Positions 13,920-63,817 of a stretch of DNA of 64,000 bases are shown one piece after another. The position numbers and the translations under genes were made by a program. The stretch comes from Medicago truncatula (lineage: Eukaryota > Streptophyta > Magnoliopsida > Fabales > Fabaceae). Location: positions 7,202,001 through 7,266,000 of the forward strand of contig NC_053043.1 of assembly GCF_003473485.1 (NCBI RefSeq), given 5' to 3'. The first letter of the stretch is position 1. Each line of letters opens with the position of its first letter. The notes under the pieces are model-generated. The model saw nothing but the letters and a program-made list of their open reading frames with translations, was not told where the DNA came from and searched no databases.

Positions 13920-14463
13920 ATTTTTCCATTTTTTTATTACATGGATTTACGGGTTTCCGGATCCTAATCCGGGTTCCATCTATATCCCAATTACCGCCAT
14001 AGCTCAATCTGAACAACAAGCTTTCTTACAACCTCCGTGTTTTACACCTCTCCAATTTGTCCCCAATTCCACTATTGCTCTCTCAATTCCATTTCAATCC
14101 CATTCATCAATGCTTCAATTCCAGGTAAATTTTTCATTTCTTAAACCCTAATTATTTCGATCCATTCCTACTGCTTTGACTTTTTATTGCTAAAACCCAT
14201 TTATTTCGATTTCTTAATTGCTTCATTTCGTTTTTTTCTAGTTCAAAACTTAATCATTCCGTAGTAATTAATTTACCTCCTTCAGATGATGATAATTTTA
14301 TGATCAAATTAAAAATGTAGTGATGATTAATTTTATGATCAATTGTATAACTGTATTGAATTTTGCATCATAACTTTCCATGCAGGAATAAGTGTTTTTA
14401 TCTTAATGTGTGGAATGTGCTTTTGTTTGCTTTGAAAAAGGGAAGGTAGTAGGATTTGAGATA
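13920..14463 (+). promoter_or_regulatory. FRS leader region with a 5' UTR intron
   Basis: A probable leader exon ends at 14124 (CCAG followed by GTAAAT) and resumes after an acceptor at 14385 (TTTCCATGCAG), giving a 261-bp leader intron at 14125-14385. The leader is pyrimidine-rich (CTCTCAATTCC, CCATTCATC). The transcription start is not resolved. Confidence 0.6.
14406..14435 (+). promoter_or_regulatory. Upstream ORF in the FRS leader (9 codons)
   Basis: The first ATG of the second leader exon opens MCGMCFCLL and stops at TGA (14433-14435), 28 bp before the chosen FRS start at 14464 and in another frame. If translated it would lower initiation at the main start. The FRS frame itself has no ATG between the leader acceptor and 14464. 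Confidence 0.6.
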
Positions 14464-16749
14464 ATGATTGTAAAGGAGCATCCGGTTGGTACTGAACTGG
14501 TAATGAGTAATACAATTGGGGAGGATGAAATAGATTTTTCTTGTGATCCATACATAGGGTTAGAGTTTTTTAATGCTGATGATGCACTTAAGTTCTATAT
14601 ATCGTATGGTAATCGAATGGGATTTAAAGTTCGGATTGGTCAACTTTATCGATCGAGAACTAATGGGTCGGTTTCTTCTAGAAGATTTGTGTGTTCGAAG
14701 GAAGGACATCAGCTCAGCTCAAGAACTGGTTGTCCGGCGTTCATAAGGGTGCAGTTAAATGATTCTGGAAAGTGGGTTGTTGATCATTTTCATAAGGATC
14801 ATAACCACAATCTTGAAAATGAAAGTGAAAGTTTCGCTCCAACATTGCAGCCGAAGGCTTCTGCAGCTATTGAGTCTTCTACTGAAGTCACTCGCAAGCC
14901 GAGGAAGAAAATGCTTGAAGTAGGGAATGGTGAACCTATTTCTCCCTTTGGCGTTATTAATTTCAAGCGTATGAGAAAAGAAGAACTTGAAGTACAAGCC
15001 AGGATCGAACCATATGTTGGTCAAGAGTTCAGTACCCCTAATGAAGCCTACCAATTTTATCATGCTCATGCAGCATATATGGGTTTTGGAATTCGAGTCG
15101 GTCAATTGTTTCGTTCTAAAAATGACGGATCAATTACATCACGACGCTTTGTGTGCTCAAAAGAAGGGTTCCAGCACCCTTCCAGAGTTGGCTGTAAGGC
15201 TTATTTGAGGATTAAGAATCAACCATCAGGAAAGTGGGTAGTCGACCGTCTTGAAAACGATCATAATCATGATCTGGGCCTTGAAAAGGAACGTAAGACA
15301 AAAAGTCTTCCTGCTTCCAACATTTTGACCGAGGAGGTAAACACTGAATTGGTGAATGGCGACATATTTAGGATAGATAACTACCCTGTCCTAAGAGGGG
15401 CTAGACAAAATCACATTAGAAGTGATTGGTACAACATGCTTTTAGAGTATTTTCAGTCAAGGCAAGCAGAAGATACAGGATTCTTTTATGCCATGGAAGT
15501 TGATAATGGTAATTGCATGAGCATATTTTGGGCTGACGGAAGATCTAGATACTCATGTAGTCAGTTTGGCGATGTCCTCGTTGTAGATACATCATATAGA
15601 AAGAGTGTTTATATGGTACCATTTGCTACTTTTGTTGGAGTTAACCACCACAAGCAGCCCGTGCTTCTTGGATGTGCTCTAATTGCTGATGAATCTGAAG
15701 AGTCTTTCACTTGGTTGTTTCAGACATGGGTAAGAGCAATGTCTGGCCGGCAGCCTCTGTCAGTAATAGCTGATCAAGATGTTTCAATCCAGAGGGCCAT
15801 AGCAAAAGTCTTTCCAGTAACCAATCATCGCTTTTCGTTGTGGCAAATTAATGCAAAGGAACAAGAGCTCGCCGGTCTGATGGGTAATGGGTTCACTAAA
15901 GATTATGAAAAGTGCGTTTACCAGAGCCAGACAGTCGATGAATTTGACGCCTCGTGGAATGCTTTACTCGTCAAATATGGATTGAAGGACAATGCTTGGC
16001 TAAAAGAAATGTATGAGAAGCGTGCATCCTGGGTTCCGTTCTATTTAAAGGGCACATTTTCTGCTGGAATTCCTATGAAAGAAAGCATGGAATCATTCTT
16101 TGGTGGAAGTTTAAATGGCCAAACACCTCTCATAGAGTTCATTCCGCGTTATGAAAGAGGTCTCGAGCGACGTCGTGAAGAAGAAAGGAAAGAGGATTTT
16201 AATACTTCCAATTTTCAAACTTTTTTGCAAACGAAAGAGCCAGTAGAAGAACAGTGTAGAAGGCTTTACACTCTTGCAGTATTCAAAGTATTTCAGAAAG
16301 AGCTTTTGCAGTGCTTTAGTTATCTTGGGTTTGCAATCTACGAACGAGGGTCCCTCAGCAGATATTTGGTGCGTAAGTGTGGAAATGATGATATGGTGAA
16401 GCATGTAGTTACATTCAATGCATCCAATCTTGACATTAGTTGTAGCTGTCAGATGTTTGAATATGAAGGCGTTCTTTGTAGACACGTGTTGAGGGTTTTT
16501 CAAATATTGGAAGTAAGAGAAGTTCCTTCTCGCTACATCTTACACCGATGGACGAGAAATGCCGAGGATGGTGTTTTTCCCGACATAGGATCATGGAGTA
16601 GCTCTCAGGAGCTAAAAAGTTTGATGCTATGGAGTCTAAGAGAAACAGCATCTAAATACATAGATGCTGGTGCATCATCAATTGAAAAGTATAAACTTGC
16701 GTATGAGATTTTACGAGAGGGCGGGAGAAAACTTTGTCGGCACAGGTGA
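14464..16749 (+). CDS. FRS7/FRS12: FAR1-related sequence protein with two FAR1 domains, FRS7/FRS12 type
   Basis: This uninterrupted exon encodes 761 aa from the first in-frame ATG (MIVKEHPVGTELV). Two FAR1-type WRKY-GCM1 DNA-binding domains lie at about residues 29-116 (PYIGLEFFNADDALKFY ... CPAFIRV ... DHNHNL) and 183-271 (PYVGQEFSTPNEAYQFY ... CKAYLRI ... DHNHDL). A domesticated MULE transposase core follows at about 340-430 (GDVLVVDTSY ... VGVNHHKQPVLLG). A SWIM zinc finger, CSCQMFEYEGVLCRH, lies at about 660-675. A basic NFKRMRKEE-type stretch between the FAR1 domains may help nuclear import. FAR1 domains duplicated in this way are characteristic of Arabidopsis FRS7 and FRS12 (about 760-790 aa), which repress transcription in flowering-time, growth and defence-metabolite control. 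Function here is inferred from that clade. No breaks were seen. Confidence 0.93.
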   Translation: MIVKEHPVGTELVMSNTIGEDEIDFSCDPYIGLEFFNADDALKFYISYGNRMGFKVRIGQLYRSRTNGSVSSRRFVCSKEGHQLSSRTGCPAFIRVQLNDSGKWVVDHFHKDHNHNLENESESFAPTLQPKASAAIESSTEVTRKPRKKMLEVGNGEPISPFGVINFKRMRKEELEVQARIEPYVGQEFSTPNEAYQFYHAHAAYMGFGIRVGQLFRSKNDGSITSRRFVCSKEGFQHPSRVGCKAYLRIKNQPSGKWVVDRLENDHNHDLGLEKERKTKSLPASNILTEEVNTELVNGDIFRIDNYPVLRGARQNHIRSDWYNMLLEYFQSRQAEDTGFFYAMEVDNGNCMSIFWADGRSRYSCSQFGDVLVVDTSYRKSVYMVPFATFVGVNHHKQPVLLGCALIADESEESFTWLFQTWVRAMSGRQPLSVIADQDVSIQRAIAKVFPVTNHRFSLWQINAKEQELAGLMGNGFTKDYEKCVYQSQTVDEFDASWNALLVKYGLKDNAWLKEMYEKRASWVPFYLKGTFSAGIPMKESMESFFGGSLNGQTPLIEFIPRYERGLERRREEERKEDFNTSNFQTFLQTKEPVEEQCRRLYTLAVFKVFQKELLQCFSYLGFAIYERGSLSRYLVRKCGNDDMVKHVVTFNASNLDISCSCQMFEYEGVLCRHVLRVFQILEVREVPSRYILHRWTRNAEDGVFPDIGSWSSSQELKSLMLWSLRETASKYIDAGASSIEKYKLAYEILREGGRKLCRHR

Positions 16750-54626: not shown

Positions 54627-55074
54627 AGCCTATGTTGAATTTAGATGCTATGTTGATGTTTTTTACTAGTGTTACGTTGCATATACTTCTTCCATCCCAT
54701 TATGAGTAATCATATTATATTATTTCACATGAATTAAGAAGCTATGAACAAAAGAAAGGAAACAACAATTTTACTAAATTAATTGTATAAGTTTATTGCA
54801 AATTAAAAATAATACTGTACTTATTATGGAACAAATTATTTTGGCAAATGACATTAATAGGACATAGGGAGGAGTTATGAGACTTAATGATCCAAGGTAA
54901 AAACAAACATGTGCAAGTTACAACACCTAATTCACTTGTACATCGTAGAAGTGGTTCCTTTAGTATATAATGTGACATGTCATGTTTTTTATATGGTTTG
55001 AAGGCATTCAAGTTTTAAAATTCAGCTTCAGTCCCAGCCTAAACAAAAAGTCTAGGTGAAACTTTGAAAGTATT
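54627..55074. other. No gene seen
   Basis: AT-rich spacer without a recognisable gene or element. Confidence 0.5.
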
Positions 55075-55360
55075 CTTTATCTAAGGTACATGTGCTGAAT
55101 GATTTATTTGTAGAAAAAATAAAAGCAAATCCGAAGAATATATATAACCAAGCAAGCATCAATGCAATTGCTGTCCATATCATATTCAAGCACAACTAAC
55201 AAAATATATCTGATATACAGTGTGAAATGTGCATTCATCTCATAACCAATAACTAGGCATGACAGCCTCATTTGTCCAGACAACAAGATCTGCATAATAT
55301 AAAATTATAAATAATCTAAATGGAAAATGAAAGAGCTTCCCAGCTCCTCACAGACTGGGG
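55075..55360 (-). pseudogene. Duplicated scrap of the glutamine synthetase 3' end (non-coding part)
   Basis: The segment matches 62310-62590, the region just downstream of the GS2 stop codon. Shared stretches include GATTTATTTG.AGAAAAAA, CTGATATACA, CATAACCAATAACTAGGCAT, CCAGACAACAAGAT and CCAGCTCCTCACAGACTG. Homology ends at about 55360, before the point corresponding to the coding exon. Only 3' UTR-like sequence is left, and it is followed by an F-box scrap. Confidence 0.8.
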
Positions 55361-55613
55361 AACTCAAAAATCCTTCTCGCTTGGGGAACTCAAAAATTAT
55401 ATTAGGGGAGGGTTTTAGGGGTTATGGAGGGTTTATATGAATTTTTCAAATTCACTCTATGTTGCTATAATGTTTTTAAAATTAAAAGTATATTAATCAT
55501 AAGTATTAGTTTATCATTCTCTAAAAAACTGTTCTTTCAAAAAATGTGAATTTTTTGTCCATTTTTCTATATATTTCCAACCTCTAAAGTCCTCCCCTCC
55601 TTTCTCTAAAAAA

Positions 55614-55820
55614 CTTACAGACGGATCAGAGTTGCATGAGGAACTTAACTGGAAGCCTGGTGAGAATATCGACCACGAGCTCAAATGGAAGAAGAGTGGG
55701 AAGTAGAGGCGCGTGAAGTGAATTTCCGGAAGAAGATGTTTTTTTTGAACAAATCAAAATGGGATTATTTTAGCGTAAAAAGGCGCCGTCTCCGTCATCG
55801 ATTTCGGTACTTGGGGCCAT
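55614..55820 (-). pseudogene. N-terminal F-box gene scrap, related to the array
   Basis: The ATG at 55820 opens MAPSTEIDDGDGAFLR and then a stop. A second frame continues SSSGNSLHAPLLPTLLPFEL, VVDILTRLPVKFLMQL, a stop, then SVCK. This matches the first ~60 residues of the 39.7-40.9 kb gene (MAPTSETDD ... LPTLPFEIV ... RLPVKFLMQLQSVCK). Homology ends exactly after VCK at 55614. The FBA part is absent, so it is a truncated pseudogene about 9 kb outside the array. Confidence 0.85.
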
Positions 55821-56979
55821 TAGCGTGGTGACAACCGGCATCAGCCAAATGAACTTAATTTGAGAGAACATGGTTTGCAAGTATCAAGTTATTTTACAAA
55901 TATACTACTAATTTACTTCATAAATTTCTTCCCTTCCAAAACAAAAAAAATTCATAAATTTTTTCTATATAAAACAGAGATTTTTTATTTAAGGGTAACA
56001 AATTAATTTTTAGTTATAAATGTTTACACTCTTACATTTTTTTCCTTCCCATTTCGTTAGAAGATGTTTATGTCTTCCATTTGAGCTAAGGAAAAATGTG
56101 TTTAAGATTTTAAGTTTAAATTTTTAGGCTTAATTGCTATTTTAGTCTCTTAACTAATTTTTTGGTATCGGTTTGATCCCATAACTAAAAAAAAGGTCCG
56201 TTTTGGTATTTTAACTTTTACTCCGTTACTTGTTTGAGAATTGCTGTTTACACATTACATAAGGCTGTGCCAAACGAGTACTTTATGAAAATGCCCTTCG
56301 GCAGTTAACTGCCGAATTTTTAGTAAACCGGCGACAGTAAACTGCCGAGGAAATCTGGACTTAATCATTCGCAGAACCAGAACTTCCCATTTCCAAAACA
56401 ATTTCAAAATTCTCAATTTCTCTCCAATCTTCACCAAATCCATTTTCACGAATTGCAAGCAAATCAAGTGCGCATTATCACAAGTAAGTTGTGTCAATAA
56501 TTTTAATGTTAATGTTGATTTGTTTAGGTTGATTTTTTAAAAAAAAAATAGAGTAGTTTGTATGTGGTTAGGGTTGATTTTAAAATTGACAATTTGATGA
56601 TTGCATGTGTTGTTTAGGAATTGATAAATGAATGTAGTTGTTGCCTATGTTGTTTAAATCATAATGTGGCTTTGAATGGTGGCAAATGAACACAATTTGA
56701 ATATGTTTTATACTTTGCACACAAAGTGTTTGATAAAATGTCTCAATGACAATTTTATTGAATATTTAGTTAGTTTAGGTTATGTAAATGATATAAATGA
56801 TGTTAATTATAGTTTGGTTAAGTGTATATTGATTTTTTAGTTAGTTTAGGTTACGAGAATTATGATGGACAGAAATGATTTAGTTGTATAGAAATGATTA
56901 AGTGTATGTTAATTATTGAATGATGTTTAGGTTATTATGGAAATGATGGACATAAATTTTATTGTAATGATGATTATAT

Positions 56980-59113
56980 TGAATGATCAGAGTAAAATAT
57001 CACATAAACGAAATATCACACTTCTTAAAAATCATAAATGAGGTAATTAACTAATTATCTTTCCAAAAATCATCAACATATTAATTCAAACTTTGCAGCG
57101 GATTAAATTCATTAACATAAATAAGTCTTTGGCACGCAGGCCTTATTAAAATATACACAATACGTAAAAGAATAGAAAATAGCCACAAAAGATCACATTC
57201 CGTACTTACTTATCAGAGCATCCTAAGACTCAGTGAGGAATAAGTCACTCACGACAGCAACGGCAACAACCTATTAACGATCACCTGCAAGTTACTCATA
57301 GGAAGAGCAACATTTTCAAGCAGAAGGGGTGAGATTTCACAAAACAATAATATTAAGCATATAATTCAACAATTATATTTAATCAACATCAAATCATCTT
57401 AATATTCATTATAGATAGTAATATATCATTTAGCACTTCAATCATAGTTTGTATAAACAATTACAACTTCACAACTTATCAACATAAACATCCTTGACTC
57501 GACAAATGCGACTCCAACTCGACTATGCAATTTAGACATCTTATATGCATGTGGTACCAATACGGAGCATCAAGCCCCTCTCGCTATTTGAGTATTAATA
57601 TACTCAAGAGCATCAAGCCCCTATCGCTATTTAAGTATTAATATACTCCATAGCATCAAGCCCCTATCGCTATTTAAGTATTATTATACTCCAGAGCATC
57701 AAGCCCCCAACAAAGAATGCTAATGTATGGACTCGACTTCTGAAACATCTTAAATCGACAACTCTTGTATAATCCAATAATTTGGAACTTCATCATCTTA
57801 ATCAACTTAGACCGACTCATGCAGCTTAGTTAAATAACAACAGCAACACAGTAGTATACAAAAACAGCATGACATAATAATATCAAATGCAAATCAACAA
57901 CGTCTCAATTATTCACATATAATTCAAGTAATGCATATATAATTATATCACGATATAACAACATCAAATCATAATCAACATCAACTTAAACATCTTATAT
58001 AATTCACATAATGCATGCATATACAAATATATTACATTACTATCAACATTAAATCATATTATAATAGCTTCACAGATCATCAATAATATTATATTCAACC
58101 CTCATTCGTACCCCAAGGATCAACTCACAACATGGGTTAAATACTCTTAAACACCTTAATTGAACTCATAGTACTTCTAGTTTTGAGGGTTGGTATTATC
58201 CCATAAGTTTTGGATTAACTTAGAAACGGTTATGCTGAATTTTCATAAGGTTTCACTAAGACCTCCTTGGAATATTTTCATCATATCTCAAAAACTAAAA
58301 ATCATTTTCAAGTGAAACCAAAGCCATTGGAAAGCTAACTCAATTATCTACAACTTTCATGTTTACACCGAAAGCAAATTCAAAACAGAAAATGGTGAAA
58401 ATTACGAATATTTTCCAGATTTGCCTACCAGAAAATCGGAGGCCGATTCTGACAAATCGGGGACCGATTTTCGTCGAACCAAAGCTAGAAAATCAGCTCA
58501 GAAATCGGGGGCCGATTTTGAGCTTCACAGCAGTTCAAAAATCAGTTTAACAATGCGTTTTTCACTTAAGAATCGCTCTTATTTCACTAGACTCAAAGAC
58601 AAACTCCCAAATTTGTTAGGAAACTTAATCTATGATTATTCTACAACCAGAACATCAATTCTTAACACAATTATCATGGTTTCTACACTTTTCTAATCAA
58701 ACTCAACAATGGAAAACCTAATTCCCAATTTTCAAACTAAACCTCCAACATGTTAAATCTAATTATCAGAATCATAGGCTTAAGAAGATTGAATGTTAGT
58801 CTCACCCTTACCTTAATAGAATGGAATCGCAGCCCCTCTAGTCTTCTCTCTTCTCTTGGCTTTTTCTCCCTTTTTCTCCAAAATTGATCGTACGTTCTAT
58901 TTTTTCTAAACTAGGTCTCTCCTATTTATAAAAATCCTTAACCTACTTATTTTTCTCTTAAATCCAAATCTTAATATTCTATTCTAGTATTATATAATAT
59001 TTCTATAACAAATAACAAATATTTCTATAATAGATCATATATATTTTTATAACAAATTATATATAATTCTAACAATAATTAAAATAATCAAATAATTAAA
59101 GAGGGCGTTACAA
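56980..59113 (-). mobile_element. Probable solo LTR (fossil) nested in the MULE
   Basis: On the minus strand the segment begins TGTAACGCCCTCTTTAATTA and appears to end in ...TCTGATCA near 56980. It has an LTR-like promoter, TATAAATAGGAGAGA, near 58925-58940. No internal retroelement genes are present. It interrupts sequence upstream of the PMD exon, just before the CAG acceptor at 59118. The exact ends and the target duplication are not settled, so this is a structural inference. It is younger than the MULE that holds it. Confidence 0.45.
57565..57710. repeat. 43-bp tandem repeat, about 3.4 copies
   Basis: Units start at 57565, 57608, 57651 and 57694 with (G/T)AGCATCAAGCCCC, followed by TATCGCTATTTAAGTATTA and a TATACTC end. 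The spacing is exactly 43 bp each time. It lies within the presumed LTR. Confidence 0.93.
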
Positions 59114-59118
59114 CAGGT

Positions 59119-61080
59119 TATTGACCCGTCACAGCTTCTTGACCAGTCTGGGGTAGAGTACCTGAATTATCAGGATCAGGTACACCACGATGTGACTGAT
59201 GGTGGATATGACCAGGATCATATACCACAACAGCAGCATGTAGGAGACGATGATGACATTGCAGCAGCTGCTACACTGGAGGTGTTACCTGTGGACCCTC
59301 CCTTTCCTGGTGGACCGACAGACTTATTTTTGCTCCACTCTTAGGACAGTCATGTGGCGTTGCCACTTTGGTATAATTCATGTAATGTAAGTGTAATTTT
59401 TTTAAATGCTTTTTCTTTATGTTTAATTATTTTCTTTAAATGTGTGTTTGTTTAATTATTATATCCACTTTTATGTGTTTTTTTTTTAATTCTTTTTCTT
59501 TATGTTTAATTATTTTCTTTAAATGTGTGTTTGTTTAATTATTATATCCACTTTTATATGTGTTTTTTTTAATTCTTTTTCTTTATGTTTAATTATTTTC
59601 TTTAAATGTATGTTTGTTTAATTATTATTATATCCACTTTTATATGTGTTTTTTTTTAATTCTATTTTTTATGTTTAATTGTTTTCTTTATATTTGTGTT
59701 TGTTTAAACTATATTTATTTTTCTATTATTTCAGGTTCGTAAGCTCCGTGTGGTTAAACCGATTAATCATGGGGCTAAGATCCTCAGTCTCGGACGCCCA
59801 AATGGGAATGAGAATTGATTTTGGGATCCGCTTAGGGAGAGCGGGTTACATGACTTGGTTTACTTGGGGTACTCCACCGTGCCTCATGCCCTGCTGATGG
59901 CTTTATGCGAGAGGTGGCATCCTGAGACCATCACCTTTCACATGCCCATGGGGGAGATGACTGTGACATTGGATGATGTCGCATGTCTCACGCATCTTCC
60001 GATTGAGGGGCGGATGTTGAGTCATGGGAAGAAGATGCCGAAACATGATGGAGCGGCACTACTTATGAGGCACCTGGTGTGTCGCAGCAGGAGGCGGAAA
60101 AGATTTGTGGGCAGGAGTACGGTGGGTACATTAGCTACCCGAGGCTGAGCGACTTTTATACCACATACCTTGGTAGGGCCAACTTATTGGTTGGTACGGA
60201 GGATCCAGAGGAGCTTGAGGAGCTGGCGAGGGTTAGGACTGACTGCGTCTGGTGTTACCTTCTCTACTTGGTCGGATGCTTGTTGTTTGGCGATAGAAGC
60301 AACAAGCGCATCGAGTTGGTCTATCTGACGACCATGGAGGACGGCTACGCAGGGATGCGTAATTATTCATGGGAGGGACGACACTCGCTTACCTATACGG
60401 CGAGTTAGCTGATGCGTGTAGGCCTAGAGACAGAGCTCTTGGGGGGAGCGTGACACTGCTCACTGTAAGAAAACTTATATTTTATTTTTTTGTTAACTTT
60501 TATTTTTTTTGTTATATTTTTCGTGCGTAATAATTTATAAATGTTATTTGTTTGGTTTGTGCATGCATGGTTTTTGGCGCATTTTCCTGGGTTTTACAGT
60601 GTTGATCCCAACACTGACTACATGGAAAACTATCCGGTTGCAGCAAGGTGGAAGCTCCAGAAGGGTCACGGGGAGGGGGTCACGTATCGGTCACTGCTTG
60701 ATCGTATACAGTTTGATGACGTATGCTGAAGGCCTTACGAGGAGCACATGGAGATCCAGGACTTTGAAGAGGTTTTCTGGTATTCTGACTGGATTATGTG
60801 CGGTGTCCGTAGGGTGTACCGTCACTTGCCCGAGAGGGTTTTGAGGCAGTACGGATACGTCCAGACCATCCCCAGACATCCGACTGATGTTGTAGACCTC
60901 CCACTGCCTTACATTGTGCAGGCGTTCGTCGACTTCCGTACTCACACGCTTAAGGCGGCCGATTGGGGTGAGCAGGCAGGAGAGCAGACATGGCTGATGA
61001 CGGATGGCTATATGCTATGGTACACTAGGGTGTCTCACCCTCAGATCTTGCCACCTCTTTCAGGAGATCTTCCGAGTTTC
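59119..61080 (+). pseudogene. Plant mobile domain (PMD) gene, decayed, cargo of the MULE
   Basis: Exon 1 starts after CAACAG at 59118 and reads VIDPSQLLDQSGVEYLNYQD ... PPFPGGPTDLFLLHS; its donor is near 59388. Exon 2 starts at 59734 and includes HDLVYLGYSTVPHALLMALC, ERWHPETITFHMPMGEMTVT, LDDVACLTHLPIEGRMLSHG, SYPRLSDFYTTYLGRANLL and CYLLYLVGCLLFGDRSNKRI. The last exon (from about 60570) reads FLAHFPGFYSVDPNTDYMEN, YRHLPERVLRQYGYVQTIPR and YTRVSHPQILPPLSGDLP. These are the conserved parts of the PMD (PF10536), the domain of MAIN/MAIL1 proteins and of many plant transposons. At least three in-frame stops and two frame shifts interrupt it, so this copy is dead. Codon use is more GC-rich than its surroundings. 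Confidence 0.88.
59409..59700. repeat. 83-87 bp tandem repeat, about 3.5 copies, in the first PMD intron
   Basis: Units starting at 59409, 59492, 59575 and 59662 contain CTTTTTCTTTATGTTTAATT, TTTCTTTAAATGTGTGTTTG and TTATATCCACTTTTATATGT in the same order. Confidence 0.9.
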
Positions 61081-61352
61081 AATGTTGTATGAATTGTTCT
61101 GCCTTTCGAAATGCTCTGGTTTAATTACAGGTAAAAATTGGCCGAAAAAAGGCTTGGAAATGTTTTAGAATGATGCAGAGCTCACTGCCTGCAATCAGAT
61201 TTCCTCGGCAGTTAACTACCGAAGTTTTCCTCGGCAGTTAACTGCAGCCGGATTTCTAAAACTTCGGCAGTTAACTGCCGAGGGGCAAAAACGTAATTTA
61301 CTCGTGTGGCACAACCTTATGTAATGTGGGAACATCAATTCTCTACTTGTTT

Positions 61353-62300
61353 TGGTCCTTTCCGTTAATTTTATTCAAAAAAACGTTAGCGTTTATTTTC
61401 TTCATCTGAAGAACAACAACAATAGCATCAACTAAATTAAGCAGCAACAACAACGATTTTGGCATCATCATCATCATCATCATCATGAAGTAACCCATAA
61501 ATCCTCTCATACAACAACAACAAAATCAAATAGTAGCAACAACATCAAACAACAACAATTTCTAAATCATCATCATCCTCTCATACAAAAAAAAAAAAAC
61601 TCATAAAACATCTTCATCCTCGTGAAATAATAACCCATAAAACCCATAAAAGAAAATCCAAAGTTTTTGCAACAACAACAAACACTTTTTGCAACAACGG
61701 CAATTTCAAACCCATTTCACAATAATCCCAAATTTTCAAACTTTCTTTCATATTATTCAAAACCAAGAATAAAATCAATAAATGGTAGCTAAAAAACACA
61801 AATCTTAGACCCATTCATCAATTTCTCCAAAAAAATTTCTTCGAAAATTTCAAAGGAGAGACAGTTCAGCAGATCCATAACTATGGGTGTGATTTTCTCG
61901 TTGTTGTTATTCTTTAAGCTGATTTGATTCAGCAGATCCAGAATTGGGAAGAGTGAGATGAACATGTTGAAGTATTGTCCCTTATGAACAAACATCTGAA
62001 ACAAAAATTCAGATACAGTAAAAATTGCCGCAAGAAGAAAATTGTTTATGTTGTTTTCTGGGATTGTGTTTGAAACGAAGATGATGATAATTTTGTGTTT
62101 GGTAGAGAGTGAAATAGAGGAATATGGATATCAGATTGGAGCAAAAAAAATGAGAAGAAAGGGAAGAGAGAGTTTGAATTTGAGTTAACCCTTTCACAAC
62201 AATTAAAAGAATTTGGGAGTAAAATAAAGTTAGGGTTTGAATAACATTCATGTGAAGGTAGTGAAATAAAGTTAGAGTTTGAATTTGAATTATGGCTTCT
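61353..62300. other. Gene-free region with trinucleotide-rich tracts
   Basis: The right-hand remainder of the repeat hit by the MULE (TTGGTCCTTTCCGTTAATTT) is followed by AAC- and ATC-rich low-complexity sequence, including a (CAT)8 run at 61463-61487. No gene is supported. Confidence 0.5.
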
Positions 62301-62631
62301 CTTTCTGAGGCACATGAGCTGACTGATTTAGCGATTTATTTGCAGAAAAAAAGAAAAACAAATCTTGAAGAATATAACCAAACAAGCATCAATGTAACTC
62401 TGTCCATACCATATGCTATCACAGGCAACGAAATATATCTGATATACAATGTGCATTCATCTTATAACCAATAACTAGGCATGTCAGCCTCGTTGTCCAG
62501 ACAACAAGATATTCATAATATAAATATAAATATAATTTATAAATAATCTAAAAGGAAAGTGAAAGAGCTTTCCAGCTCCTCACAGACTGCAGCAGTGCCG
62601 ACTCCATCTAGAACGCCATTAATCAATAGAT

Positions 62632-63817
<1,186 letters not shown>

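Follow-up and report, generated by a model that had tools for sequence, protein, structure and literature searches.

The feature at positions 56227 to 61352 of the window (the whole 64,000-nt stretch of DNA that was analyzed) is a transposon insertion, measured here to include both copies of its target-site duplication. The 9-bp duplication TACTTGTTT is present without mismatch at 56227 to 56235 and 61344 to 61352, a match with a chance probability of about 1e-5 at fixed positions given the base composition here. The element itself begins with GAGAATTG at 56236 and finishes with CAATTCTC at 61343, and its terminal arms (TIRs), at 56236 to 56356 on the plus strand and 61223 to 61343 on the minus strand, are 121 nt each and 83% complementary. 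Readable termini, inverted repeats of about 120 to 145 bp, and a perfect target duplication had been claimed in a first-pass annotation, and all three were located at these coordinates. The 9-bp duplication and the long TIRs are as expected of a MULE. Within the left TIR, an exact copy of the palindrome CGGCAGTTAACTGCCG lies at 56299 and one with 2 mismatches at 56332; on the right side, the palindrome occurs at 61232 and 61265 in the TIR and at 61206 just inside it. This 16-nt motif is concentrated in TIRs and internal blocks of the family, and the remaining 58,840 bases of the window contained no match with 3 or fewer mismatches.

When the flanking sequences were fused with a single copy of the target, they aligned continuously across the join to copies of another repeat (L031 to L034), most with one mismatch inside the 9 bp. 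Because the match is uninterrupted across the join at these related empty sites, the window element is an insertion into that repeat and not a piece of a larger duplication. The possibility that the TACTTGTTT repeats lie within a larger shared duplication was ruled out by the same alignments.

Inside the left TIR is a 5' leader (56357 to 56987, plus strand) upstream of the PMD gene, with 92 to 97% identity to several siblings and 74 to 81% to others. A foreign 2.1-kb insertion (56988 to 59112) then replaces 266 to 293 bp found in seven siblings, including the PMD start codon. One edge of this insertion is LTR-like (TGTAACGCCC, minus strand), and neither a target duplication nor clean boundaries were found for it. 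The PMD gene continues on the plus strand as a remainder of exon 1 (59113 to 59386), which lacks the start codon and has one in-frame stop; exon 2 (59735 to 60464), disrupted by two deletions of 1 nt each and by an in-frame stop; and a truncated exon 3 (60565 to 61076), where the CAG acceptor of sibling L014 has become CAT and an in-frame TGA lies at 60727 to 60729. The ends of exons 1 and 2 were read against L014. A deletion of about 540 nt relative to L010, at a 6-nt microhomology (TCCGAG, 61071 to 61076), removes the C terminus. The gene in the window copy thus has three stops, two frameshifts, a lost splice acceptor, a deleted C terminus, and no start. Downstream, a remnant of block A, an internal block of longer siblings, occupies 61077 to 61222 (plus strand) and is joined to the right TIR within a palindrome stretch.

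Positions 59855 to 60091 matched the PMD profile PF10536 (E value of 1.6e-16; 60.8 bits against a cutoff of 34.9), positions 60748 to 61089 (E value of 1.5e-5) and 60106 to 60405 (E value of 0.016) fell below the cutoff, and 60541 to 60726 had no match. Searches with tblastn for MURA, ORF2, and ORF3 returned no match within 55001 to 63000. PMD is therefore the sole recognizable cargo, as first annotated, and the lack of a MURA match makes this bounded MULE nonautonomous, also as proposed. The descriptions "near-complete" and "clean example" do not hold, as the element is a pseudogenized deletion derivative with a foreign insertion.

A search for relatives yielded 544 candidates, of which 40 were scored, giving 39 other PMD loci at 88 to 95% identity. 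The siblings retrieved were the best-scoring 20 of these 39 rather than a random sample. Both ends with perfect 9-bp duplications that differ from one another were present in 8 of the 20 (L012, L013, L014, L017, L022, L023, L024, and L025), in addition to the window copy, showing that siblings inserted elsewhere with duplications of their own. A complete three-exon PMD gene was intact in four (L014, L024, L027, and L028). ORF2 was present in 13 of the 20, partial or broken in 3 of those 13, and MURA lay inside only one, several having a right side that extends beyond the retrieved 10 kb. Several copies with different 9-bp flanks, some with MURA, had been suggested as a check for mobility, and with several such copies and one carrying MURA, the element counts as mobile on that measure. 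The count of end pairs used 76 typed end matches, after removal of secondary rows that were short and inverted, duplicates of a single place, and row C3:4078568; the L030 rows duplicate locus C4 and were not counted.

The fullest relative has the order TIR, PMD (forward), block A, ORF2 (forward), block B, ORF3 and MURA (both reverse), TIR. Shorter classes lack one or more of these modules, and the blocks between modules are palindrome rich and resemble terminal repeats. MURA was found in two relatives that share the ends of the window element. One (L029; 6,899 bp; duplication TAATTTATA) carries MURA without PMD, and its MURA matched PF10551 with an E value of 1.8e-26 and is split by one in-frame stop. 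The other (L022+L039; 9,956 bp; duplication TATAGAGAA) contains PMD and, convergent with it, MURA, as well as two small ORFs; its PMD, ORF3, and MURA frames are all broken. No fully intact element with both PMD and MURA was seen among the relatives examined. Elsewhere, MURA frames remain open over as many as 995 amino acids, and 26 of 59 scored matches had no stop. Composite loci C1, C4, and C8 carry PMD and MURA together and were rejected as full elements because one end was not found.

In the PMD-only copies, block A is joined to the right TIR inside the palindrome stretch, and the same joint is found in five of the six (L015 has a gap there). All six form one group in the tree (support of 82/95), equivalent to one change on the tree, and the window copy falls within a group of five rows (99/97). 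Of these copies, L013 and the window copy are each flanked by a perfect duplication of their own, and L015 by one with a mismatch. The nearest relative of the group is L009, which carries ORF2 and ORF3 (99/96; midpoint root, no outgroup). The idea of an element dedicated to PMD held insofar as the PMD-only elements group together; in the family at large, other modules often accompany PMD. Stops or frameshifts were present in each of the six PMD-only genes examined.

Between lineages, PMD dN/dS values were 0.31 to 0.40, pointing to a gene that was under purifying selection. Neutral simulations were run 300 times for one pair under two spectra, 200 times per pair for a 12-pair set, and 100 times per pair for the PMD-only group. 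Within that group, 13 of 15 pairs fell at or below 2 of 100 simulations, so PMD apparently was constrained there too; the two pairs that did not stand out were L010 with the window copy (7 of 100) and L015 with the window copy (27 of 100). Four pairs in the 12-pair set also did not stand out: L012-L014 (0.41) and the young pairs L024-L027 (0.85), L024-L028 (0.68), and C1-L024 (0.75). Intron divergence in 10 pairs was 0.022 to 0.063, always far below dS and near or below dN, with slight excesses over dN in L016-L024, L016-L027, L014-C8, and L014 with the window copy. Because introns are a conflicting yardstick, the case for constraint rests on the wrong-frame and simulation controls.

We consider it highly probable that the feature is a nonautonomous, internally deleted, dead copy of a multigene MULE family. 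The steps that follow are inferred. MURA from relatives would bind the shared TIRs and move PMD-only copies in trans. Palindrome arrays may act as promoters or protein-binding sites and also as recombination points. PMD would have been retained by aiding the element, most plausibly through weakened host silencing, as speculated by Ikeda et al. (2017), and the window copy would have decayed afterwards.

That PMD is instead a neutral passenger, its low dN/dS reflecting long descent inside MURA-bearing masters that each threw off PMD-only copies to decay, is possible but on balance doubtful. The broken genes in all six PMD-only copies, the neutral appearance of young-burst pairs, and intron divergence close to dN are as expected from such a history, whereas a single supported group, a joint common to all PMD-only copies but the gapped L015, and the simulation results within the group argue against it. 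Somewhat less likely still is the reverse direction, with PMD-only elements being older and the PMD+ORF2+MURA form arising when a PMD element and an ORF2-MURA element fused end to end, so that block A would consist of the inner parts of two TIRs joined together. Block A does lack the outer 60 bp and resembles a back-to-back pair of inner TIR halves, and the unrooted tree permits a root on the PMD-only stem; however, the position of L009 next to the PMD-only group fits loss equally well.

Pack-MULEs have lost transposase and carry host gene fragments (PMC6446971), and a nonautonomous MULE with an internal gene could be one that recently captured a host PMD fragment. We regard this as very improbable, given that four siblings retain a complete, intact PMD gene of three exons and that the closest among six further PMD types taken from the genome is about 37% identical in protein. 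This comparison used three of the four intact PMDs, leaving out L028 for an unaligned exon-edge base; with the best of only six types at this identity, recent host capture was not supported. Finally, it is extremely improbable that the two ends come from separate elements and that the TACTTGTTT match arose by chance or from a larger duplication, a reading for which we found no supporting point and which is contradicted by the empty-site alignments and by the eight siblings with matched ends and perfect duplications.

Plant MULEs in which PMD lies antisense to MURA have been described before. In clades including MUDR, MUDRAVI2, MDR, and MULE-Solanaceae_1, PMD is an additional ORF, frequently in antisense orientation to the transposase, and many of them have 9-bp duplications and long TIRs like those here, and MULE-Solanaceae_1 is also listed with an ORF of unknown kind (Dupeyron et al. 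2019, PMC6446971); the available part of that paper describes neither nonautonomous PMD-only derivatives nor selection on PMD. PMD-C fused to MULE transposase is reported from grasses and Amborella by Ikeda et al. (PMC5418596), where anti-silencing use of MULE-borne PMD is speculation; unlike those fusions, PMD here is a separate, convergent gene. VANDAL21/Hiun, which encodes the anti-silencing protein VANC, is similar in having additional genes and in repeating short motifs within its noncoding parts (PMC5735166), but the motif of the present family is palindromic and clusters in the TIRs and internal blocks. Internal TIR-like segments recall MULEs with multiple TIRs (Ferguson and Jiang 2012, PMC3310237), although the blocks here have no outer end and lie between gene modules. 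MuTAnT, also from Medicago truncatula, comprises nonautonomous MULEs and one autonomous relative with 9-nt duplications, features comparable to those of the present elements, but has a different TIR (search mask GGGGTTTGCTAGAACA) and TA-microsatellite targets, with no PMD described in the available part of that account (PMC4486113). The window element was rejected as a MuTAnT on its TIR.

PMD proteins silence transposons in Arabidopsis (PMC5418596, PMC7156037), yet transposons carry PMD genes. A solution in which a transposase-less class keeps its sole gene, PMD, under purifying selection as a self-serving anti-silencer while using another element's transposase appears unlikely; if true, the PMD protein would prefer copies with palindrome arrays and lift host PMD-dependent silencing from them. 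Four forms with the same ends coexist in this genome (PMD-only, PMD+ORF2, PMD+MURA, and MURA without PMD), and its PMD copies are both intact and broken, so the published conjecture that transposon PMDs counter silencing becomes testable within one species. The value of the family would lie in providing such a test set.

ORF2 had no match in Pfam and nothing convincing among solved structures (best E value of 0.11), and its similarity to ORF3 (blastp E value of 0.12) does not establish homology. The C terminus of MURA gave 16.8 bits against the Pfam OTU profile (cutoff of 23.3) and an E value of 0.0098 against OTUD3, which is suggestive only of an OTU domain.

The ends, inverted repeats and 9-bp TACTTGTTT duplication that the first-pass annotation had read around a MULE at 56236-61343 were borne out at those positions. 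A query joining the two flanks through one target copy gave, among the best 40 of 1,045 candidates, an unbroken match across the join to another repeat of the genome. Alignments with four loci of this kind (L031 to L034) contain one target copy and an ungapped join, with the empty-site 9 bp mostly in one-mismatch forms (TACATGTTT or another) and exact in one of L032. This host repeat has many copies, its ends lie about 1.2 kb apart in opposite orientation in L031 to L034, and the MULE flanks at about 56125-56235 and 61353-61410 fall inside it. Because these empty sites are gap-free and carry a single target, the alternative that the TACTTGTTT repeats lie within a larger shared duplication is rejected for the window element.

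Mobility had also been predicted to leave several copies with different 9-bp flanks, and the genome (429.9 Mb in 42 contigs, with contigs C1 to C8 of 43 to 65 Mb) contains them. Scoring the best 40 of 775 and the best 40 of 1,759 candidates in the end searches gave 76 typed end hits, among which 8 pairs face inward over 398-5,124 bp, L013 being one of them. The PMD region matched at least 39 other loci at 88-95% identity (best 40 of 544 candidates scored), and the 20 best scoring of 39 were fetched as siblings. In 8 of the 20, the two ends are present and flanked by a perfect 9-bp duplication, which differs in each: L012 (TACGCGAAA), L013 (GGATTATTC), L014 (CTGAAGTTA), L017 (AGTTTTCCA), L022 (TATAGAGAA, right end in L039), L023 (AAAAGACAC), L024 (TAAAAATAA) and L025 (TCTTTAAAT). 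The duplication had one mismatch in L015 and L026, the flank match in L009 and L028 consisted solely of A or T runs, and an in-register duplication was not found in the other 8 fetched siblings (L010 and L011, in which both ends were detected, and six lacking one end).

The window PMD gene is decayed. Compared with the intact gene of L014 (three exons of 438, 732 and 771 nt, 646 aa), it spans 78% and is missing its start. Stops interrupt the frame at reference codons 132, 174 and 445, two 1-nt deletions lie in exon 2, and the exon 3 acceptor is CAT instead of CAG. A foreign insertion of 2,125 bp (56988-59112) replaces the 266-293 bp that seven siblings have between the points equivalent to 56987 and 59113; the segment 56986-57372 shares 85% identity with part of L031/L033. 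One edge of this insertion reads TGTAACGCCC, and similar-looking edges interrupt the composite PMD-MURA loci C1 and C4. Further right, the sibling match ends at 61076 and restarts at 61071, with 6 bases in common, and L010 has about 540 nt extra at this break.

The expected autonomous partner was identified by kind, on the evidence of L029, the joined loci L022 and L039, and the composite loci C1, C4 and C8; a complete working copy was not found, the frames being interrupted in both L029 and L022+L039. The 6,899-bp L029 element has the same ends as the window family and a TAATTTATA duplication, with ORF2 forward and ORF3 and MURA reverse. Its MURA matches PF10551 (E 1.8e-26), with an N-terminal stretch scoring above the cut-off for the AFT profile and below it for FAR1, and one in-frame stop between the N-terminal and main stretches. 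The C-terminal part (L029:5485-6114) resembles an OTU cysteine protease below the Pfam cut-off. In L022+L039, PMD, ORF2, ORF3 and MURA lie within one end pair that spans 9,956 bp and is flanked by a perfect duplication; its PMD, ORF3 and MURA frames are all interrupted. C1, C4 and C8 each join PMD and MURA, with one end not found in each. Elsewhere, 26 of 59 scored matches to the MURA main stretch were stop-free, in frames up to 995 aa (best 59 of 1,547 candidates). ORF2 (115 aa; L023:7162-7506 and L029:2616-2960) has no Pfam match, and its genomic matches number at least 150; of the 150 scored, 96 lack stops (manual count; best 150 of 797 candidates). At four places it lies 2.9-4.2 kb from MURA matches in convergent orientation.

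Terminal-repeat-like stretches separate the gene modules of longer siblings. The palindrome CGGCAGTTAACTGCCG (up to 3 mismatches) was mapped in the window element and five siblings, and in each of these six it is concentrated in the two terminal repeats. Block A (after PMD) has a further cluster in L023, L014 and the 9,956-bp element, as does block B (after ORF2) in L029 and the 9,956-bp element; these latter two also have it once upstream of MURA. L010 and the window have it near the ends only, and none occurs in the other 58,840 bases of the window. Block A of L009 aligns with five of the six PMD-only copies as far as the palindrome stretch, within which they switch to the right terminal repeat; the sixth, L015, is gapped at this joint. 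In a tree built from 24 PMD sequences, a single change accounts for the PMD-only state (support 82/95; 82% of bootstrap trees). The unlabelled L018 falls among the PMD-only copies, four of which group with the window (99/97). On this unrooted tree, both fusion and fission of modules are possible histories.

PMD dN/dS was 0.31-0.40 at dS 0.12-0.15 for L014 or L016 against L023, L024, L025, L027, L028, C1 and C8, and 0.86-1.16 in a wrong-frame control of four pairs. Context-aware neutral simulations (200 per pair, 12 pairs) gave medians of 0.62-0.88. The observed value fell under the lowest run in 7 of the 12 (L014 against L024, L027, L028, C8, L010 and the window; L016-L024) and under the 2.5% mark for L014-L016; L012-L014, L024-L027, L024-L028 and C1-L024 were not distinct from simulation. 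For 13 of the 15 pairs within the PMD-only group, the value lay at or under 2 of 100 simulated runs. The youngest PMD copies were indistinguishable from neutral. Against constraint, PMD intron divergence was close to dN and far below dS in all 10 pairs. These introns are a poor yardstick because they are AT-rich with tandem repeats, yet the conflict with the constraint reading remains. ORF2 has a median dN/dS of 0.33 over the 16 pairs, out of 78, whose dS exceeds 0.08, and MURA gives 0.19-0.67 in all but one of 10 distinct pairs, the exception being 1.52 at dS 0.009; both, taken without simulations, look similar to PMD in apparent constraint.

Several plant MULE clades carry PMD, often antisense (Dupeyron et al. 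2019, PMC6446971). PMD-C was captured twice by MULEs, with an anti-silencing role offered as speculation (Ikeda et al. 2017, PMC5418596), and eudicots have mostly PMD-C of the genic kind (Nicolau et al. 2020, PMC7156037). Titles and abstract openings in a literature search did not name a non-autonomous PMD MULE.

PMD matches belonging to a different type, most of them in long stop-free frames, are clustered at 23.03-23.27 Mb of contig C3. Within the window, several minus-strand ORFs of 260-384 aa at 19312-46573 have, by eye, the appearance of a tandem F-box family. A 779-aa open frame at 14410-16749 resembles, by eye, a FAR1-related sequence gene, a kind of domesticated MULE transposase.
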